Positions 11,182-63,860 of a DNA stretch of 64,000 nt are shown piece after piece. A model generated the notes under the pieces. That model was given only the letters and a program-made list of their open reading frames with translations. It did not search any database and had not been told where the DNA came from. Each line of letters opens with the position of its first letter. The first letter of the stretch is position 1. This DNA is from Geosiphon pyriformis. Taxonomy: Eukaryota; Glomeromycota; Glomeromycetes; Archaeosporales; Geosiphonaceae. The stretch covers positions 357,102 through 421,101 of the forward strand of contig JAAOMT010000379.1 of assembly GCA_016748015.1 (NCBI GenBank), in the 5' to 3' direction. Made by a program: the position numbers and the translations under genes.

Positions 11182-12538
11182 ATGTTATCTAAAAATAATG
11201 AAAATCTTATAAAGAAAGTTTTTAAATCATTAATATTTATAACAATAATCGGATTCTACTTTCTTTTTGTTTATTTCCCTAGTACTTTTTATTCCCAATC
11301 TTCAAATTACTGCAACAATTCATCAATCACAAACCTAACATTGGATGATGCCTATTATCCACCTATAAAAATACGCATTCCATCTTTAAATTCTACCTCA
11401 AGTTTGAGTAAAGCACATCTATTAAAACGAACAGGGTTTGGCAAACTCCAAAATTCGTCTCCTTCGAAAATACTGGTCACTGATTTAGCCTTAATTGATT
11501 TCTTAACAGAAATGGCTCGAGTAGCAAATATTCCTTATTGTTTTCCACAAAACAATATGTGGGGTGAGTAATAGGTTCTAAATGAAATTTCAATTTTCGA
11601 AAGGAGTTGTCCAAATTGCTGGAATTTTTCAATATTTTCCTACCAAAATCAGGTGAAGTATTCTTGGATGAAAAAAAGGAACATATTATTGGGCATTTTA
11701 NNNNNNNNNNNNNNNNNNNNNNNNNNNNNNNNNNNNNNNNNNNNNNNNNNNNNNNNNNNNNNNNNNNNNNNNNNNNNNNNNNNNNNNNNNNNNNNNNNNN
11801 NNNNNNNNNNNNNNNNNNNNNNNNNNNNNNNNNNNNNNNNNNNNNNNNNNNNNNNNNNNNNNNNNNNNNNNNNNNNNNNNNNNNNNNNNNNNNNNNNNNN
11901 NNNNNNNNNNNNNNNNNNNNNNNNNNNNNNNNNNNNNNNNNNNNNNNNNNNNNNNNNNNNNNNNNNNNNNNNNNNNNNNNNNNNNNNNNNNNNNNNNNNN
12001 NNNNNNNNNNNNNNNNNNNNNNNNNNNNNNNNNNNNNNNNNNNNNNNNNNNNNNNNNNNNNNNNNNNNNNNNNNNNNNNNNNNNNNNNNNNNNNNNNNNN
12101 NNNNNNNNNNNNNNNNNNNNNNNNNNNNNNNNNNNNNNNNNNNNNNNNNNNNNNNNNNNNNNNNNNNNNNNNNNNNNNNNNNNNNNNNNNNNNNNNNNNN
12201 NNNNNNNNNNNNNNNNNNNNNNNNNNNNNNNNNNNNNNNNNNNNNNNNNNNNNNNNNNNNNNNNNNNNNNNNNNNNNNNNNNNNNNNNNNNNNNNNATTT
12301 TCCCAATGGTCAGAAACAGTTTGGTGAGAATTTGGTAAGGATTTGAAATAAAAGCTTTTCAGCATCAATATAATTTTCATCATGCAAAATGGGTAAGATT
12401 TCTCGCGAAAACCTAAAATCTAAATATATATTTTAGAATTGTAACGCAGGAACAGATGGATCGAGCAATTTTGCACATTTTGGTCAATGGTTTGGCACAA
12501 CTTTTGGAAATTGTGAGCATTTCCTCCCAGTAAAATAA
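11182..12538 (+). CDS. Second class-3 lipase homolog, interrupted by an assembly gap
   Basis: Exon 1 (11182-11563) starts at ATG 11182 and encodes a basic N-terminus, one hydrophobic anchor or signal segment (SLIFITIIGFYFLFVYF, residues about 17-33), Asn-glycosylation sequons and ALIDFLTEMARVANIPYCF, the helix-plus-YC pattern near the start of class-3 lipase domains. An 89-bp intron leads in phase to 11653 (EVFLDEKKEHIIGHF, the strand before the oxyanion loop), which runs into the gap. After the gap come part of an exon ending at 12334 (FPNGQKQFGENL) and the last exon 12437-12538 (NCNAGTDGSSNFAHFGQWFG and a short tail), with the presumed catalytic His in AHFGQWFG. The final exon matches the last exon of the lipase at 4263 in position and in its first bases (AATTGTAA). 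The nucleophile elbow lies in the gap, so catalytic competence cannot be judged. A secreted or membrane-anchored lipase is likely. Confidence 0.75.
11701..12296. other. Assembly gap of 596 N
   Basis: An unbroken run of N inside the second lipase gene. It hides the middle of the hydrolase domain, including the serine elbow and catalytic Asp. Reading frames across it are meaningless. Confidence 0.99.
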
Positions 12539-24880: not shown

Positions 24881-25298
24881 TTATTAAGATATATTTTTTT
24901 GAACTTGAGGATAAAAGTAAAAGTAGATATAAACTGTTATTCTAAAATCAAATATTAAAATAAAGATAAAATTTTTTTTTAAGCTAAAACTACTATATAT
25001 ATATATACATTTTCAATTTCTTAAAATAGCTTCTAAAAACTTATTATTTTGCTATTACTAATTATAATCTATTATTTCATGCTATTTTGTGTTATTATAT
25101 ATTATTTATATTATTACTAGCCATTTGGTATTATCTCGTATTATCATATATTATTTTGCGTTATTCTCTATTTATTATATGTTTATCATGTTTTTTTGTA
25201 ATTGGTTGGTTTTTTTATTCAGATAATAGTAAATATAGTCTTCTTGGTATCTGAAGGTTTTTTATTAGTAAATCCCAGTTTATAATAATAATCTTGTA
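24881..25298. other. AT-rich spacer
   Basis: Simple AT-rich sequence with a TA microsatellite near 24998 and repeated TATTAT-type words at 25065-25160. No gene or recognisable element. Confidence 0.5.
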
Positions 25299-25903
25299 CA
25301 GAGGGTGTCCAAAAGTTTCCGAACAAACTTTGGAGTAACATTCCACATGCTTGAATAATTAGAAAAGCACGGGTTTATTACTAAATTAAGTTAGTTAATT
25401 ATTTAATTACGCGTTTTTTATTTTTTAAACACGCGTGTATAATGTTTTTTCGCGACGCGCATAATCGATTTTATTCATACTCGTTTTTTTATAAAAATGA
25501 AATGTAACGCGCATATAAGATTTTTTCGTCGTTTTATTAAAACGAAATGGGAGCAAAAAAAGAATTAACGATTGATCAACGTAATACTATATGCTTATTA
25601 CAACAGCATGGCAAGAAATATCGTGATATTGCCAACATAGTCAATTGCAGCTTGACAACAGTTTCGGATACAATAAAACGATTTAAAGAAACTGGTTCAA
25701 TTGATTCAAGACCTCGTTCAGGACGTCCACCTTTATTTACTCACCAAAAATATCGCCGACTTAAACGTTTAGTAACACTTAATAGAAAAATTTAGAAAAT
25801 TACTATAAAATTATAAATATGTTGTTTATTTTGTTTTATTTTATAAAAAAATAAATATTATTGTTAAATAAAATCTTGTTCGGAAACTTTTGGACACCCT
25901 CTG
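25299..25903 (+). mobile_element. 605-bp Tc1/mariner-type element with perfect 28-bp inverted repeats
   Basis: Left end CAGAGGGTGTCCAAAAGTTT (25299-25326 for the full 28 bp) is matched perfectly, inverted, by 25876-25903. TA flanks both ends (25297-25298 and 25904-25905), as expected for the TA target duplication of this superfamily. The interior has room only for one short reading frame (25547-25795); the DDE catalytic part of the transposase is absent. The perfect repeats and intact TA flanks indicate recent movement in trans, using a full-length relative elsewhere. It sits between decayed LINE material on both sides. Confidence 0.92.
25547..25795 (+). CDS. Tc1-type transposase DNA-binding domain, 82 residues, no catalytic domain
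   Basis: The frame starts MGAKKELTIDQRNTICLLQQ and continues HGKKYRDIANIVNCSLTTVS, DTIKRFKETGSIDSRPRSGR, then PPLFTHQKYRRLKRLV. This is the first helix-turn-helix (residues about 8-45), the GRPR-like linker (RSGRPP, about 58-63) and the start of the second helix-turn-helix of Tc1/mariner transposases, which bind the terminal repeats. A full transposase would be about 340 residues with a DDE/D core; here the frame stops at 25793 only about 80 bp before the right repeat. The reading frame itself is undamaged. As predicted, it could bind the element's ends but could not cut them. Whether it is transcribed is unknown. Confidence 0.8.
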   Translation: MGAKKELTIDQRNTICLLQQHGKKYRDIANIVNCSLTTVSDTIKRFKETGSIDSRPRSGRPPLFTHQKYRRLKRLVTLNRKI

Positions 25904-25905
25904 TA

Positions 25906-26899
25906 AATCTAAAAATCTAAAGATTGGTTTTATGAGTTTTATTAACTTTTAACACAAATGATATAATTTTTTATAAGTAACATGAATTCTGTTTATAGTT
26001 ACATCTGTTGTTTTTGTTGAAATTTTTGATAATAGCTTTTTGTTATGTATGACTAATAAAAAAATTTTCTAATATTTATTAAACTTCTGATTGCGTTTTT
26101 TTTTGTGACTTTCAGATATTCTTTTTAATATTGCACTAAAATCTTAAATATCTGAATAATTATCTTTACTTGTAGTGTAAGCAATAAGTTTTTTAAATAT
26201 AACATTCTTATTCAAAGCAGTATAAATAATATTATTAACACACATATAAAAAAAACAGTCGCAAAACACAAGAATAACACATCTAAACCCAAAAGAGAAC
26301 TCTATAAAATTATATACAACTTGATCAACTTTTTACAAACAAAAAAATCCAATTACATGTGAAAAAATTCTATCTCTTTACAATAAAAGCACAAAATACT
26401 GGAATATATCTTGTTATATAAGCATTTATAAATAGTAACAGACAAGTAATAATATAAAGTCTTTATAAAATATGAATATAGACTAGTGAATTTTTTATTA
26501 ATAAAACCAAAGACCATATAAAAATCAGAGTACTAAACCAAAATAACTCAATTTCAGTTAATATTTTTAATAATATTAATATTTACAATACCAAAACCAA
26601 GCCCAATTTTTTATTGAGTATAACAAACAGCTTTAAACACATTATAAACAAAAATACTAAGTATTTTCAAATACTATTATACTACTAGCTTTGATATACT
26701 TCTTATATACATAAATAAAAAGCACTAAATCCAAAAAAAGAAGCATAAGCAGTCAGTTTGTTAGCACATTTATTATTTAAGACACCTAAATAGCTTTTAA
26801 TCTTAGATCAAATAACATTAAAATCTTTATTCATAATAAAATTCATAATACTATATCTTTTAAGTCAACAACAGTTGTGAAAATTCAGCAAAGCCAGAT
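25906..26899. other. AT-rich stretch, probably the decayed 3' part of a minus-strand LINE
   Basis: It lies just 3' (on the minus strand) of recognisable RNase H sequence at about 26950-27000, so it should hold the end of that LINE copy. I could not identify the zinc-finger or the tail motif, so the boundary of the relic is open. Confidence 0.35.
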
Positions 26900-47630: not shown

Positions 47631-50074
47631 TTTTTTATAATTATATCTACTTAAAACTTAACAATAATTGAGTTTAAACTTAAAGTATTATTAATAATTA
47701 AATAATTTAACCAATTTTTCCAAAAAAGTGTTTTAGAATATTTAAAAAATATAATTTTTATTAACAATAAAATTATTTATATATATAAAAACAGCAAACT
47801 TAATATAATAATTCAAAGCAAACTAGAATTTACAAAGTTTGACAACATAATAAGTTTTTTAATTTTAAATAAAATAAATTTAATAATATTTACATTAAAA
47901 TTTATATTTAATATATTTATAACAAATATAATTTTAATATTATTAAAGCATAATTATATTTTTAATAATAATAAAATCTTAATATTAGGTTTCAAATATA
48001 TTGTTTTAATAATTTTAGAAATCAGAAGTTTAAGATTATAATATTATTAACAAATCTTAAAATAATAACTTTTTAAAAACAATCTTAGTTAATAAACATA
48101 TTAATAATCAAATAATACTTTATATTTAATCTAAGTTTTTAGTTTTTTTGTGTTTAAAAAAATTTTCAAATAAATTACTGTCTTAAATAAAGTAACATTC
48201 TTAAATTAATTCTATTTAATATTATTTAAATTTTTAAAATTGTATTTTTAACACTTTTTATTAATCTATTTTTACAGAAAAGTTAATTAAAACATTTAAA
48301 AACTTATTTAATTCTATACAAATAAATACAGTTTTGTAATTAATATCAAAAAAATTACTTATATTATAAACTTTTTTTTANNNNNNNNNNNNNNNNNNNN
48401 NNNNNNNNNNNNNNNNNNNNNNNNNNNNNNNNNNNNNNNNNNNNNNNNNNNNNNNNNNNNNNNNNNNNNNNNNNNNNNNNNNNNNNNNNNNNNNNNNNNN
48501 NNNNNNNNNNNNNNNNNNNNNNNNNNNNNNNNNNNNNNNNNNNNNNNNNNNNNNNNNNNNNNNNNNNNNNNNNNNNNNNNNNNNNNNNNNNNNNNNNNNN
48601 NNNNNNNNNNNNNNNNNNNNNNNNNNNNNNNNNNNNNNNNNNNNNNNNNNNNNNNNNNNNNNNNNNNNNNNNNNNNNNNNNNNNNNNNNNNNNNNNNNNN
48701 NNNNNNNNNNNNNNNNNNNNNNNNNNNNNNNNNNNNNNNNNNNNNNNNNNNNNNNNNNNNNNNNNNNNNNNNNNNNNNNNNNNNNNNNNNNNNNNNNNNN
48801 NNNNNNNNNNNNNNNNNNNNNNNNNNNNNNNNNNNNNNNNNNNNNNNNNNNNNNNNNNNNNNNNNNNNNNNNNNNNNNNNNNNNNNNNNNNNNNNNNNNN
48901 NNNNNNNNNNNNNNNNNNNNNNNNNNNNNNNNNNNNNNNNNNNNNNNNNNNNNNNNNNNNNNNNNNNNNNNNNNNNNNNNNNNNNNNNNNNNNNNNNNNN
49001 NNNNNNNNNNNNNNNNNNNNNNNNNNNNNNNNNNNNNNNNNNNNNNNNNNNNNNNNNNNNNNNNNNNNNNNNNNNNNNNNNNNNNNNNNNNNNNNNNNNN
49101 NNNNNNNNNNNNNNNNNNNNNNNNNNNNNNNNNNNNNNNNNNNNNNNNNNNNNNNNNNNNNNNNNNNNNNNNNNNNNNNNNNNNNNNNNNNNNNNNNNNN
49201 NNNNNNNNNNNNNNNNNNNNNNNNNNNNNAAATACTATTAATTATTTTATAAAGTATTAATATTAATAAATTAGCATATTAAAATACAAAATTGTAAATA
49301 AAAAATATATATATATATTAATATTGAATTATATAATAAAATAAAATAAATTGTTTTTTATATGTATATTGCAAATTTACTTTTTTTATTTAAAATATAT
49401 TACAAAATTAATATCAGATATTTTATTAAATACTTATAACAAATTATTAAAAATAAAAATTAATAATTAATAATTAATAAATAAAATAAAATTTTTGTTT
49501 TTTTTGTTATATTTTTGGTTATTTAAAAATTTTTTTAACAAATATAAAAACAAATAATATTATAAAATATAAAATGTTTAAATTTTAAAAAAATATTTTT
49601 TTTTCTCTTATATTTTTTATTATTTTATAAGAAATAAATTCTTTTATTTTGAAATTAACAGTTATTATTAGTAATAATATGATTAAAAAAAGTTGGCAAG
49701 AAGTTTTTTTATAATTTTATAAGTAATATACTTAGACAAAGGCAAAAAACTTTAATTATCAATATTAAATATTTAAGTAATAAATTTAATATAAATTTAA
49801 CTAGGATTTTAAATAGTTTCTAACATAAAAGTTAATATAAACAAAAAAATAAGCAATTTTTTATTAATTAGAGTAGTTATAATATTAATAGTAAAAAAAA
49901 TATTTATAAAACAAAATAAATTAATATTAATAAAGTAAATAGTTTTTTTTTAAATCTCTGAATTTAACATAAAAAAAATAACATTTTTTTTCTATTGTAC
50001 TATTAATTTGAACAAAATTTGAATTAATTCCAAAATTATGAAAATATTTGTTAAAAAATATTAAAGTAAAAAAA
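47631..50074. other. AT-rich flanks around an 849-N assembly gap
   Basis: Sequence on both sides (47631-48380 and 49230-50074) is A/T only in long stretches with no reading frame or recognised repeat. The gap at 48381-49229 sits in the middle, and the assembly probably failed on this low-complexity DNA. Confidence 0.6.
48381..49229. other. Assembly gap of 849 N
   Basis: Unbroken N run between the decayed LINE copy D and LINE B. Confidence 0.99.
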
Positions 50075-59180: not shown

Positions 59181-62100
59181 ACAATCTGGTTTAGAATATT
59201 GCTACTTGCAATGTCAGAGAAATGAACAATCCTGCGAAACAGGATGATGTCATTTGTTGGCATATGGAAAAGAACAATTTAGTTTCTATTTTTACAGAAT
59301 CAAAATTAAAAGGGAAGATTTGCCCCTAGATTGTCAACAAATTTGATGGTGTACAGGTGTTTATCTCTGGTTTGGAATCTGGTTATCTGGGTGCTGGTGT
59401 CATGGTCGTCATGAATTTTTCTTTGGCAAAACATGTGTACAAGGTTTCAAAAGTGTCTGGTTAGCTCTTGTCCATTAAGTTACTTTTCAAAAATAAACTT
59501 TCAGTGTCTATTCTGGGACTGTATGCTAGTGCTTCCTCAGCAGTTTGGTTCTCTTAAGCTGGTGAAGTCAACTCTCTCATTGCAAAAGCTGTTAATGAAT
59601 CTTTCTTCATTGTTCTCAGTAGTAATTTCAATAAAGACAGTTCTCATAAGTGTGCAAGTTTTAAAAAGTGTTTGGATTTGGGTCTGGTGAATTCTTTGGC
59701 TGGAAGCCCAGCTTCAAAATTGTCCACCTGGGCAAATTCTAGGGGTGTCATAAAAACAATTGACTATGTGTTTGTTTCTCCAAATCTGGTCGATGCAATA
59801 ATAAATCGTAAGGTTTTGGATGTTAGTGAGCATTTTGACATGAATCACCAAGCTGTTTCAATGGCTGTAGGTTTGGGTGGGCTTTTGGATATGTGGTTAA
59901 ACTCTTTTCGCAGGCAAGCAAATAGGGACTGATGGAAATTCGATTTCAAGAGTGTTGATGAGGTTAAATAGAACAGTTTTAAAGGTGCTATGTCGACCAA
60001 TACTACAATGTTCTCAGATAAGTTTGCCGCCTCTGCGAGGCTTTCAGATTTGGATGTGATGTGGAGCATTGTTTGCAAGATAATGGTTTTTTCAGCCAAT
60101 GAGGTATTCAAGAAGAAATGGTTCAAGGAATTTAATGATGTTTTTACTAAAGTTTCTTTGAGATTTCACAAATTGGAGCTTCTGGTTTCAAAGATTATTA
60201 AGGCATCTCGTGTGAGGTGTGCTGTAGATTTTGCTTCTCTCATGAAACTTTGGACTTCTTTGGATGGTGTTAAAGCTTCAATTGTTCAGAATCTAGTGAA
60301 CTTTGGAGTAGAATCTGGTTGTGTTTGTTCTGCTCTTTCAGGTGTTAGAAAATCTTATCGGGCGTCCAAGCTTGTTGAGTCTCAGAGCGCTAAGGAGGCA
60401 AACATCAAGTCTGCCATAAGCAGAAGGATGGAAAGCTTTGAAATGAATAAGGATCATATGATAAGAAGTGTATTAGAACGTCCATTTCATAAGATTGTAC
60501 TGAACTATTTGGTGGTTGATGATGAATTGATTTTGGAATCTGGTTAAGTCTAAGGTAGATGTGATCATGAAAAGTTGGACTAGAAAGCGTCGGGTGGTCG
60601 ATAATATCTCGGTTGATTGGCGTCACCAATATCAACTGTTGGAGTATGTTTTTGATGAAGCTTTTTCTGGAGTTATGTGTTCAATTAGATATGATGAGTT
60701 CTTTGGAGTGGTTTCTGATCTTCCAGATGATAAAACAGCTGGTTTGTTGGGTATTTCTAATGAGCTTTGGAAGCACTGTGATAGGTTGGTTCTGGATATG
60801 TTGCTGGTGCTTTTGAATTCTTGTTTGTCCAGAGAATTAGTGCCTGGCTCTTGAAAGGAAGCATGGGTCTTGATGATTCCCAAACCTTATGAGTGGAAGG
60901 GTGTTCTAACAAATACACATCCTATTGCCTTAATTGAGACAGCTTGCAAGATTCTTTCTAAGATCCTCTCTGACAGGATTTCTTTGGCATGCAGCACTTT
61001 TGATGTTCTTCGGGAGGACAATTTTTCAGTTCTGAAGAGTATGATAACCTAGTCTCCTATTTTTGCAATTGGATTGGTGGTCGAAGATGCTTTGGAAAAA
61101 AACAGGGAGCTCTGGCTGGTTCTTCAAGACATGCATAAAGCATATGACTCAGTTGGCTGGGAGCATCTTGAAAAGAGTCTGGTCAGGGTTAAGATGTGTA
61201 GCAAATTTATTCAGTTTTTTGGTGGTATTCACAGGGATTGTACCAACTGAGTTATGACAGATTTTGGGTTGACAAGTGGATATCATGTGCACGATAGTTT
61301 AGACCAGAGAGAAGTCTTCTTCTCTCTTCTTTGGTGCATATTTTATGATCCTCTTTTGTGCAAAGTCAAAAGGCAGGAGAGTATATGTGGGTATAGGTTG
61401 AATTCTTACTTTGTTTCTAAGAATGGTCGTTCTGAATCCCAGGCTGGGTTTTCTTTTTTTTTTGCTGCTGGTGCTTTTGTTGATAATACGATTTGGGTTG
61501 GCAGCAGTCAGATGGCTACTCAACATATTCTCAATGTTGCTAGTGAATTTTTTCATGTCAATAATATCTCTATTAATAATGACAAAACAGTAGTCATTCC
61601 TATCAATAGCAGGGTTAGCTATCCCTCTTTCTCTATCAACGGTTCACCCATTTTTATTGCCAAAAAGGGGGAATCTCCCCGATATCTGAGCATTTTTCTT
61701 TTGACTGAGAGTCTTTTGAAGCTTAGCTTGGTTAAGGCACATTCGGACATTAGCTTTTTCACCAATCTGGTGTTGAGAAAGGTGGTCTCAGATAAGCAGT
61801 TTTTGTATTTGGTGTCAGCAGTTCTACATCCAATAATCAGCTATAGAACTCAGTTCAGTTTTATTCTTGTTGGCATGTGCGACAAGTGGGATGCTCTGAT
61901 TCATAAAGGTTTAAAGCTTAAATCTGGTTTGCCGCTCAATTTTCCTAATGATGTGGTTCATCACCCTTTGTTTTATGATTTAAAGTCATTTTTACAAATT
62001 CAATCTGAAAGCAAGATTGCTTCTCTTGTCAGTTTTGCGAACTCTAGTGGTATCTTGGGTTGTTTGTTTTTCCACAGGTCTTATGACTTGCAAGTTCTGT

Positions 62101-63860
62101 GTTGGCATTCTGTTCATCTGTTAAGCTCTCCTGTCTGTATTTGGATTAGTGCATCTAATAACTTTCTGGCAGACATGGTTCGTATTCTTCTTGATTGCAA
62201 TGTGTCTCTGAGTGGCTCTTTGGTCAGTTCTTTTCGGTTTCATGGTAGAGTACCAATGTCTACAGTTCTGGGTGAATCAGGGTTTTTCAGGTTTCTTTCT
62301 TCCCTTTGGCGGTATAGTATTGCCTTTGTGGATCAACTTCATGACTGTCATGGTGCTGTCTATGATTGGTACACCTTCAAGCGATGGAAGAGATTGGACT
62401 TCCGTGGCCCTGTTCCTGAGTGGTTCAAATGTTCTGTTTTGTTTCTCAATGATGTGAGATCTTCTTATACTCAGTCTGTAGTTTTGGGTAATGGTGGTTT
62501 TTTGAACATTCTTGAATTTGGTGAATATGTGTCTGTTTGTGACCGTCTCTTGGTAACTGGTGCTGGCAGTTTGTCAGTATATACGGATGGATTCCTTAGT
62601 AATCTTGGCACGGTTGGCTGTAGAGCTGGTGCTGCTGTTTTTTTTAAGGATATTGGCTTGGGTTTGGGCATTAATGTGTCAAGTTTGATGTCGTTTACTT
62701 TGGTGGAATTGCAGGCTATTGTCTTGGCTCTGGAGTGTGTTCCCTTGTCAAGCTCTGTTCATTTGTTTTCGGATAGTCAATCAGCTTTGGATGCTTGCAG
62801 GTCAGAGTTGGGTTTGGTGTGTCCCGATTTTCATAATCAGTGTTGGGTTGAACATTGTCATATTGTCAACTTGATTCATAGTAAGAAGTTGGAGGTGAGT
62901 TTTCACAAGATAAAAGGTCATTCTGGTATTCTGGGAAACAAGCGTGCTGATGCAATTGCTGGTGCCACTTCTTTCTCCAATTGGTATCTTTCCCTCTGCT
63001 TGAGTAAACATTTCCTGACAGCTGATGGTAGTGTTATTTCTGGGAATTCAAGACATTTTGTCCATGATATTTATCATTCTGTTTGTCGCGCACACTGGGA
63101 GGTTGGTTCTGGTTCTGGGGTTTTGGTAGAGAGTTTGTTTTCTGAGATTGATTGGCTCTGTTTGTCATTGGTGTGACATCCTAATTTGCATATGGCTGCG
63201 GGGTTTACCAGCAGGCCTTCGGCCGGTATGTATACTTACTTTATGAAGGCTTTGCACTATCGGCTGCCAGTTGCTGTATGAAAGCACCTTTATAATAGAC
63301 ATTATCCTAATGTATTGTGCTTATATTGTGGTGAAATAGAAGTGTCAGATCATGTGTTCTCCTACAAGATTGACAAATCTGCTTGACGTTGGTTGCTGGA
63401 TTCTTATGTAGGGATCTAGAAGGTGCTTTTTGGTTCTTTTCTCTCTTCCTTGGGTATATTACAATTGTTGTCATCCTGTATTTCTGATCTCTCTGTGTTC
63501 ATGGCTCTTTTTAAGGGCTTTGTTTTTAATAGTTAGTTTCATAAGACTGTTTGCATTTTTCATGACCCCAAGATTGCAGTTTTAGAGATTGTCAAGTTTG
63601 TGCACTCTCTTGGTATTGCTTTTAGGGAAGATGTCTGGTCAGTTCATGCTAAGCATCGTGCTTATATAGAAAAGAATAGATTGATCTCACTGGATAGTTC
63701 AGCTGTCATCTTAGTTCATGGTTTGGCTTCAAGGTTTTCTGCAAGAGTGGTTAGGTTACTTGGCATCACTGATACTTTAGGTGTTTATTTTGGTTTTCAC
63801 AAGTCTTGTTTGTTTTTTTTGGAGAAAGATAATTCGGTGTCAGTTCATATAGCTGAATAG
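59177..63860 (+). pseudogene. LINE C ORF2: endonuclease, reverse transcriptase, RNase H, zinc finger; broken
   Basis: Endonuclease remnants: IFTESKLKGKI, VLSSNFNKDSS (where copy B has GGDFNE), KTIDYVFVSPN and DMNHQAVSMA. The changed Asp and His contexts suggest a dead nuclease. RT: MHKAYDSVGWEHL (motif A), SLDQREVFFSLLWCIFYD (motif B), and AFVDNTIWVGS (motif C, second Asp to Asn). RNase H is complete with VYTDG, LVELQAIVLALECV, LFSDSQSALDAC and KGHSGILGNKRADAIAG. The C-terminal finger reads CLYCGEIEVSDHVFS with the last Cys as Tyr. Stops include TAG 59192, TGA 59930, TAG 61050 and TGA at about 61249; frame changes occur near 60545 and 63176. Confidence 0.9.

Follow-up and report, generated by a model that had tools for sequence, protein, structure and literature searches.

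The 605-bp element at positions 25299–25903 of the window (the whole 64,000-nucleotide stretch of DNA analyzed in this study) very probably derives from a Tc1-family (DD34E) transposon by internal deletion and is non-autonomous, with its remaining open reading frame travelling as a passenger. The initial annotation had considered both a competitive repressor and a deletion derivative that is mobile in trans. The latter reading is now well supported by one deletion junction in many copies, by full-length parents and by two intact transposase frames, while mobilization in trans by the full-length transposase is itself inferred from the identical ends and the recent copies. The element provides a clean example of a deletion derivative overtaking its full-length parent. 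The finding is real but ordinary and the element itself is of low note; the mutation pattern found in its copies may perhaps matter more.

Re-reading of the sequence confirmed that the coordinates of the element are exact, together with the perfect 28-bp inverted repeats and the flanking TAs that had been reported for it (Table 1). The left repeat and the reverse complement of the right repeat are identical at 28 of 28 positions, and the outer 44 nt of the two arms are 86% complementary. Within the 5′ non-coding region, two 18-bp stretches that resemble each other lie 52 bp apart. A genome-wide pattern census at three or fewer mismatches gave 82 occurrences of the 28-bp end and none of the reversed control pattern, an abundance that is far beyond chance. 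Point changes aside, the extracted family copies start with TA-CAGAG and finish with CTCTG-TA. When the flanks are joined without the element, they match several older paralogous repeats that are uninterrupted at the insertion point, and the element is therefore a clean insertion into a pre-existing interspersed repeat. These flanks (window 25100–26105) belong to an AT-rich interspersed repeat that is older than the element and whose many copies are about 70–80% identical. Near-identical copies of the element itself are found at many sites, in agreement with the recent movement initially proposed.

TABLE 1. Features of the 605-bp element (window positions) and loci showing C-to-T decay.
Feature	Location	Strand	Basis
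Target-site duplication, left (TA)	25297..25298	.	Flanking sequence and paralogous unoccupied sites
Left terminal inverted repeat, 28 bp, perfect	25299..25326	+	Arm comparison and pattern census
5′ non-coding region, about 220 bp, inherited from the parent	25327..25546	+	Alignment to the 1.4-kb parent L034
82-codon frame, then stop	25547..25795	+	ORF reading, profile matches, parent alignment
Deletion junction CACTTAATAGAAAAATTTAG, A-rich microhomology, about 809 bp lost	25776..25795	+	Parent comparison
3′ non-coding region from the parent, with AATAAA-like signals	25796..25875	+	Alignment to the parent
Right terminal inverted repeat, 28 bp, perfect	25876..25903	-	Arm comparison
Target-site duplication, right (TA)	25904..25905	.	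Flanking sequence
C-to-T-decayed loci, family of the 605-bp element	L029, L040, L048, L051-L055, L058, L060		
C-to-T-decayed loci, second Tc1 family	L061, L065-L084		
C-to-T-decayed loci, LINE	L089-L106 and window 61254-62450		

The copy census was based on DNA, pattern and protein searches of the assembly that contains the window (124.7 Mb in 406 contigs), in which the best candidates were scored, and all family copy numbers are thus lower bounds. The short form is present in at least about 43 copies, many of them near-identical and of the same length, so it is not a single-copy element. Several matches of the DNA search broke off at one point near the end of the frame, and the adjoining DNA exposed 1.4-kb relatives whose ends are as in the short form. 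At least about 10 of these full-length relatives were found, including two (on contigs C116 and C366) with an open 345-aa transposase frame, which answers the initial call for a full-length parent. The C116 copy (C116:16666–18084) is the sole one among those found that combines this open frame with two perfect ends; the C366 copy has an altered right tip. The 1.4-kb parent L034 has 28-bp ends identical to those of the window element and is probably autonomous, judging from its open frame. In a tree of the shared region, short and full-length copies are intermixed.

The 345-aa transposase matches DDE_3 (2.4e-14), HTH_Tnp_Tc3_2 (1.7e-11) and the catalytic domain of Sleeping Beauty (1e-37). Its catalytic residues are D157, D247 and E282, and the 34 residues separating the last two identify the parent as a predicted DD34E enzyme of the Tc1 family (Tc1/mariner). 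Among the hallmarks of this family, the TA duplication and the shared short inverted ends are found in the window element and the DDE domain in the parent. The assembly also contains a second Tc1-like family (about 40% protein identity, about 40 long copies), of which the copy at C286:388799–390147 (L061) has an open transposase frame.

The window element corresponds to the parent minus about 809 bp, with CACTTAATGGAAAAAATC on the left joined to GCTTAATAGAAAATTTAG on the right. We compared the parent sequence around positions 481 and 1292, at the edges of the deletion, where it has six A (left) and four A (right); the junction has five. Because the same five-A junction is found in all short copies compared, both clean and heavily mutated, the simplest reading would be that the deletion arose once, although recurrence in the same A-rich repeat is strictly possible. 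The short copies lack this one internal segment of a full-length element with which they coexist, as is characteristic of a non-autonomous derivative. We propose that one event, probably interrupted gap repair or microhomology joining, removed about 809 bp of the 1.4-kb parent between two near-repeats rich in A. The second helix-turn-helix (HTH) and the entire catalytic domain would have been lost in this way, and both ends, the 5′ leader and codons 1–79 would have stayed in place. Transposase supplied by full-length copies would then have moved the short form by cut and paste until it reached its present number, several times that of the parent, and the leftover 82-codon frame would be a passenger that is open in young copies and decays as expected under neutrality. 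The 1.4-kb parent also gave rise to two further internal-deletion derivatives, L033 (on C197) and L051 (C121:3164–4280), each apparently single-copy and with deletions at parent positions 779/1192 and 785/1081, respectively.

The 82-codon frame is open, as initially described, and encodes residues 1–79 of the parent transposase followed by three residues made by the junction (RKI) and then a stop codon. The first HTH, a GRPR-type linker (GRPP/GRPR) and the first residues of the second HTH are all included. In profile searches, the 82-aa protein matches HTH_29, and its match to the Sleeping Beauty HTH lies below the cut-off of that profile. The second HTH (PF01498, parent residues 74–144) is almost wholly deleted because the sequence shared with the parent stops at residue 79. 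The frame had been described as a paired HTH without a catalytic core. This description holds for the first HTH and for the missing core (the deletion removed the DDE domain), but not for the second HTH.

The undamaged frame had also been singled out as a conspicuous property of the element. It is undamaged because the copy is recent: a typical copy has about five substitutions in 610 bp. The frame was evaluated in 30 little-mutated short copies, with a neutral expectation derived from the copies' own mutation spectrum. Replacement changes within the frame number 54, silent changes 11 and stop changes 7, versus 53.6, 12.6 and 5.3 expected. Per site, 0.29 substitutions were counted inside the frame and 0.24 outside it. 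An intact frame is found in 20 of the 30 copies versus 17.4 ± 2.4 in the neutral simulation (P(≥20) = 0.18). The frame is thus broken in a third of these copies, where it was also struck by indels and by a 28-bp deletion that removes the start codon, and the suggestion that it is kept open more than chance is not borne out. The heavily mutated copies give a similar picture (212 replacement, 36 silent and 18 stop changes versus 202.8, 41.1 and 22.1 expected). We found no upkeep of the frame beyond chance in either set of copies: it evolves neutrally, and the counts lend no support to selection for the truncated protein. That a leftover frame is still open in a young copy is no evidence of function.

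These counts bear directly on the competitive repressor of the initial annotation, a KP-like protein of 82 aa that binds the ends of its relatives, blocks the transposase and has its frame selected for that role. The frame uses the parent's own ATG and leader and may therefore be expressed, and a 57-residue fragment of Sleeping Beauty comprising the first HTH alone binds transposon ends and mediates protein–protein contact (PMC7077980). In addition, the KP elements of P set a precedent for repression by such N-terminal fragments (PMC7776569, PMC12393704). A KP-type repressor is characterized by the complete DNA-binding domain of the transposase, of which the first HTH alone is retained here. 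Given the neutral change counts, a substitution density no lower inside the frame and a number of intact frames near expectation, a selected repressor protein was rejected as highly improbable. It is somewhat more plausible, but still unlikely, that the frame is unselected and that the approximately 20 intact copies nevertheless make a putative short protein that dampens transposition, in which case the numerous end copies may also titrate the transposase. The predominance of short over full-length copies (at least about 43 versus at least about 10), the mostly intact first-HTH frames of the clean copies and the same Sleeping Beauty and KP precedents are consistent with such passive repression; the DNA-binding part would be incomplete, however, and no observation is explained that is otherwise unexplained. 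We retain the passenger frame as the preferred reading.

The near-identical copies expose the mutation process of the host, as C-to-T changes make up almost all of the difference between clean and heavily mutated ones. In copies of about 85% identity, the C-to-T/G-to-A share of all differences is, for example, 68/69, 82/86, 80/82 and 76/79. The heavily mutated copies (n = 9) have on average 62.7 C-to-T/G-to-A and 3.7 other changes, versus 2.4 and 3.2 in the clean copies (n = 36). The other changes do not differ between the two sets (P = 0.20), so the heavily mutated copies are of the same age by every clock except C-to-T. Four loci (L056, L057, L059 and L060) were omitted from this age comparison since their counts are unreliable owing to poor alignment or truncation. 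One could read the copies of about 85% identity as an ancient short lineage that persisted through several bursts, as they have exactly the same junction as the young ones. Their differences are nearly all C-to-T or G-to-A, however, and with an equal load of other changes they need not be older. No shared diagnostic changes other than C-to-T that would split old from young copies were seen in the copies aligned. Such an old, repeatedly bursting lineage is not needed given the C-to-T-only pattern, and we consider it improbable.

The C-to-T process affects all contexts (0.60 per site for CG, 0.39 for CC, 0.32 for CA and 0.22 for CT) and both strands about equally, and the GC content of the flanks does not differ between heavily mutated and clean copies. 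Similar decay is found in two further families, for which a base was taken as ancestral C or G if present in at least 30% of the copies, a rule that somewhat favors C-to-T. In the second Tc1 family, 21 copies have 6 to 127 C-to-T changes, uncorrelated with the other changes (rho = −0.29), and the context order CG > CC > CA > CT is the same as in the first. The 19 copies of a LINE family from the window have 50 to 105 C-to-T changes versus 1 to 11 transversions. LINE-type reverse-transcriptase and endonuclease frames occupy window 38989–64000, much of which has a higher GC content than the remaining window. Runs of N, either gaps or withheld sequence, are located at window 11701–12296 and 48381–49229, and the ORFs listed across the first of these are not real.

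This decay pattern looks RIP-like, with repeats mutated almost only by C-to-T on both strands, and would reflect either hypermutation of that kind or methylated cytosines that deaminate very rapidly. RIP in Neurospora has a CpA preference. This preference is absent here, the order being CG > CC > CA > CT instead. The main alternative to active hypermutation is slow deamination of methylated cytosines, which also fits the graded C-to-T counts but would have to reach beyond CG sites and speed up C-to-T about 25-fold with no rise in the other changes. The search for cytosine-5 methyltransferases yielded three pieces (C318:788280–789372, C307:684535–685894 and C96:423510–423692; L062–L064), among which we recognized by eye one ordinary ENV motif (C318, the best), one DNMT2-like piece and one DNMT1-like piece. 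No clear gene for a RID-type methyltransferase was seen in the six-frame search, which may miss genes. A profile search of the assembly gave no match to the fungal fatty-acid synthase (PF08354); together with the LINE proteins of the window, the low GC content and the assembly size, this suggests that the host is probably an arbuscular mycorrhizal fungus such as Rhizophagus. Hypermutation that is restricted to C-to-T, acts on both strands, is independent of age as gauged by the other changes and affects some copies but spares others can tentatively be regarded as a possible RIP-like genome defence in a lineage from which RIP has been reported absent, although we judge this the less probable case. 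RIP has been reported absent from arbuscular mycorrhizal fungi (PMC7082362), and our literature searches gave no report of it in these fungi, which is not proof of absence. If the host is arbuscular mycorrhizal and the process is active hypermutation, the pattern bears on transposon control in supposedly RIP-free, asexual fungi.

Among known systems, the best solved relative of the parent transposase is that of Sleeping Beauty (5cr4). The parent shares with the Tc1 family (DD34E) the TA duplication, the short inverted ends, two HTHs plus a GRPR linker, and the 34-residue spacing in its DDE domain, but resides in a fungal host, and the window copy lacks the catalytic domain. In the R. irregularis library, MITEs are defined as a class by inverted ends, a length of 50 bp to 1 kb and no transposase domain (PMC11075540). 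Like MITEs, the element is short and non-autonomous, with inverted ends that match those of a full-length relative and with many near-identical copies; unlike them, it retains 79 transposase codons, so that the name internal-deletion derivative suits it better than MITE, a class free of coding sequence. The KP element of the Drosophila P element is a partial parallel: there too, copies with internal deletions can reach high numbers and code for a DNA-binding fragment from the N-terminus, but KP derives from an unrelated transposase family and is a shown repressor, whereas the product described here is a predicted one whose frame evolves neutrally.
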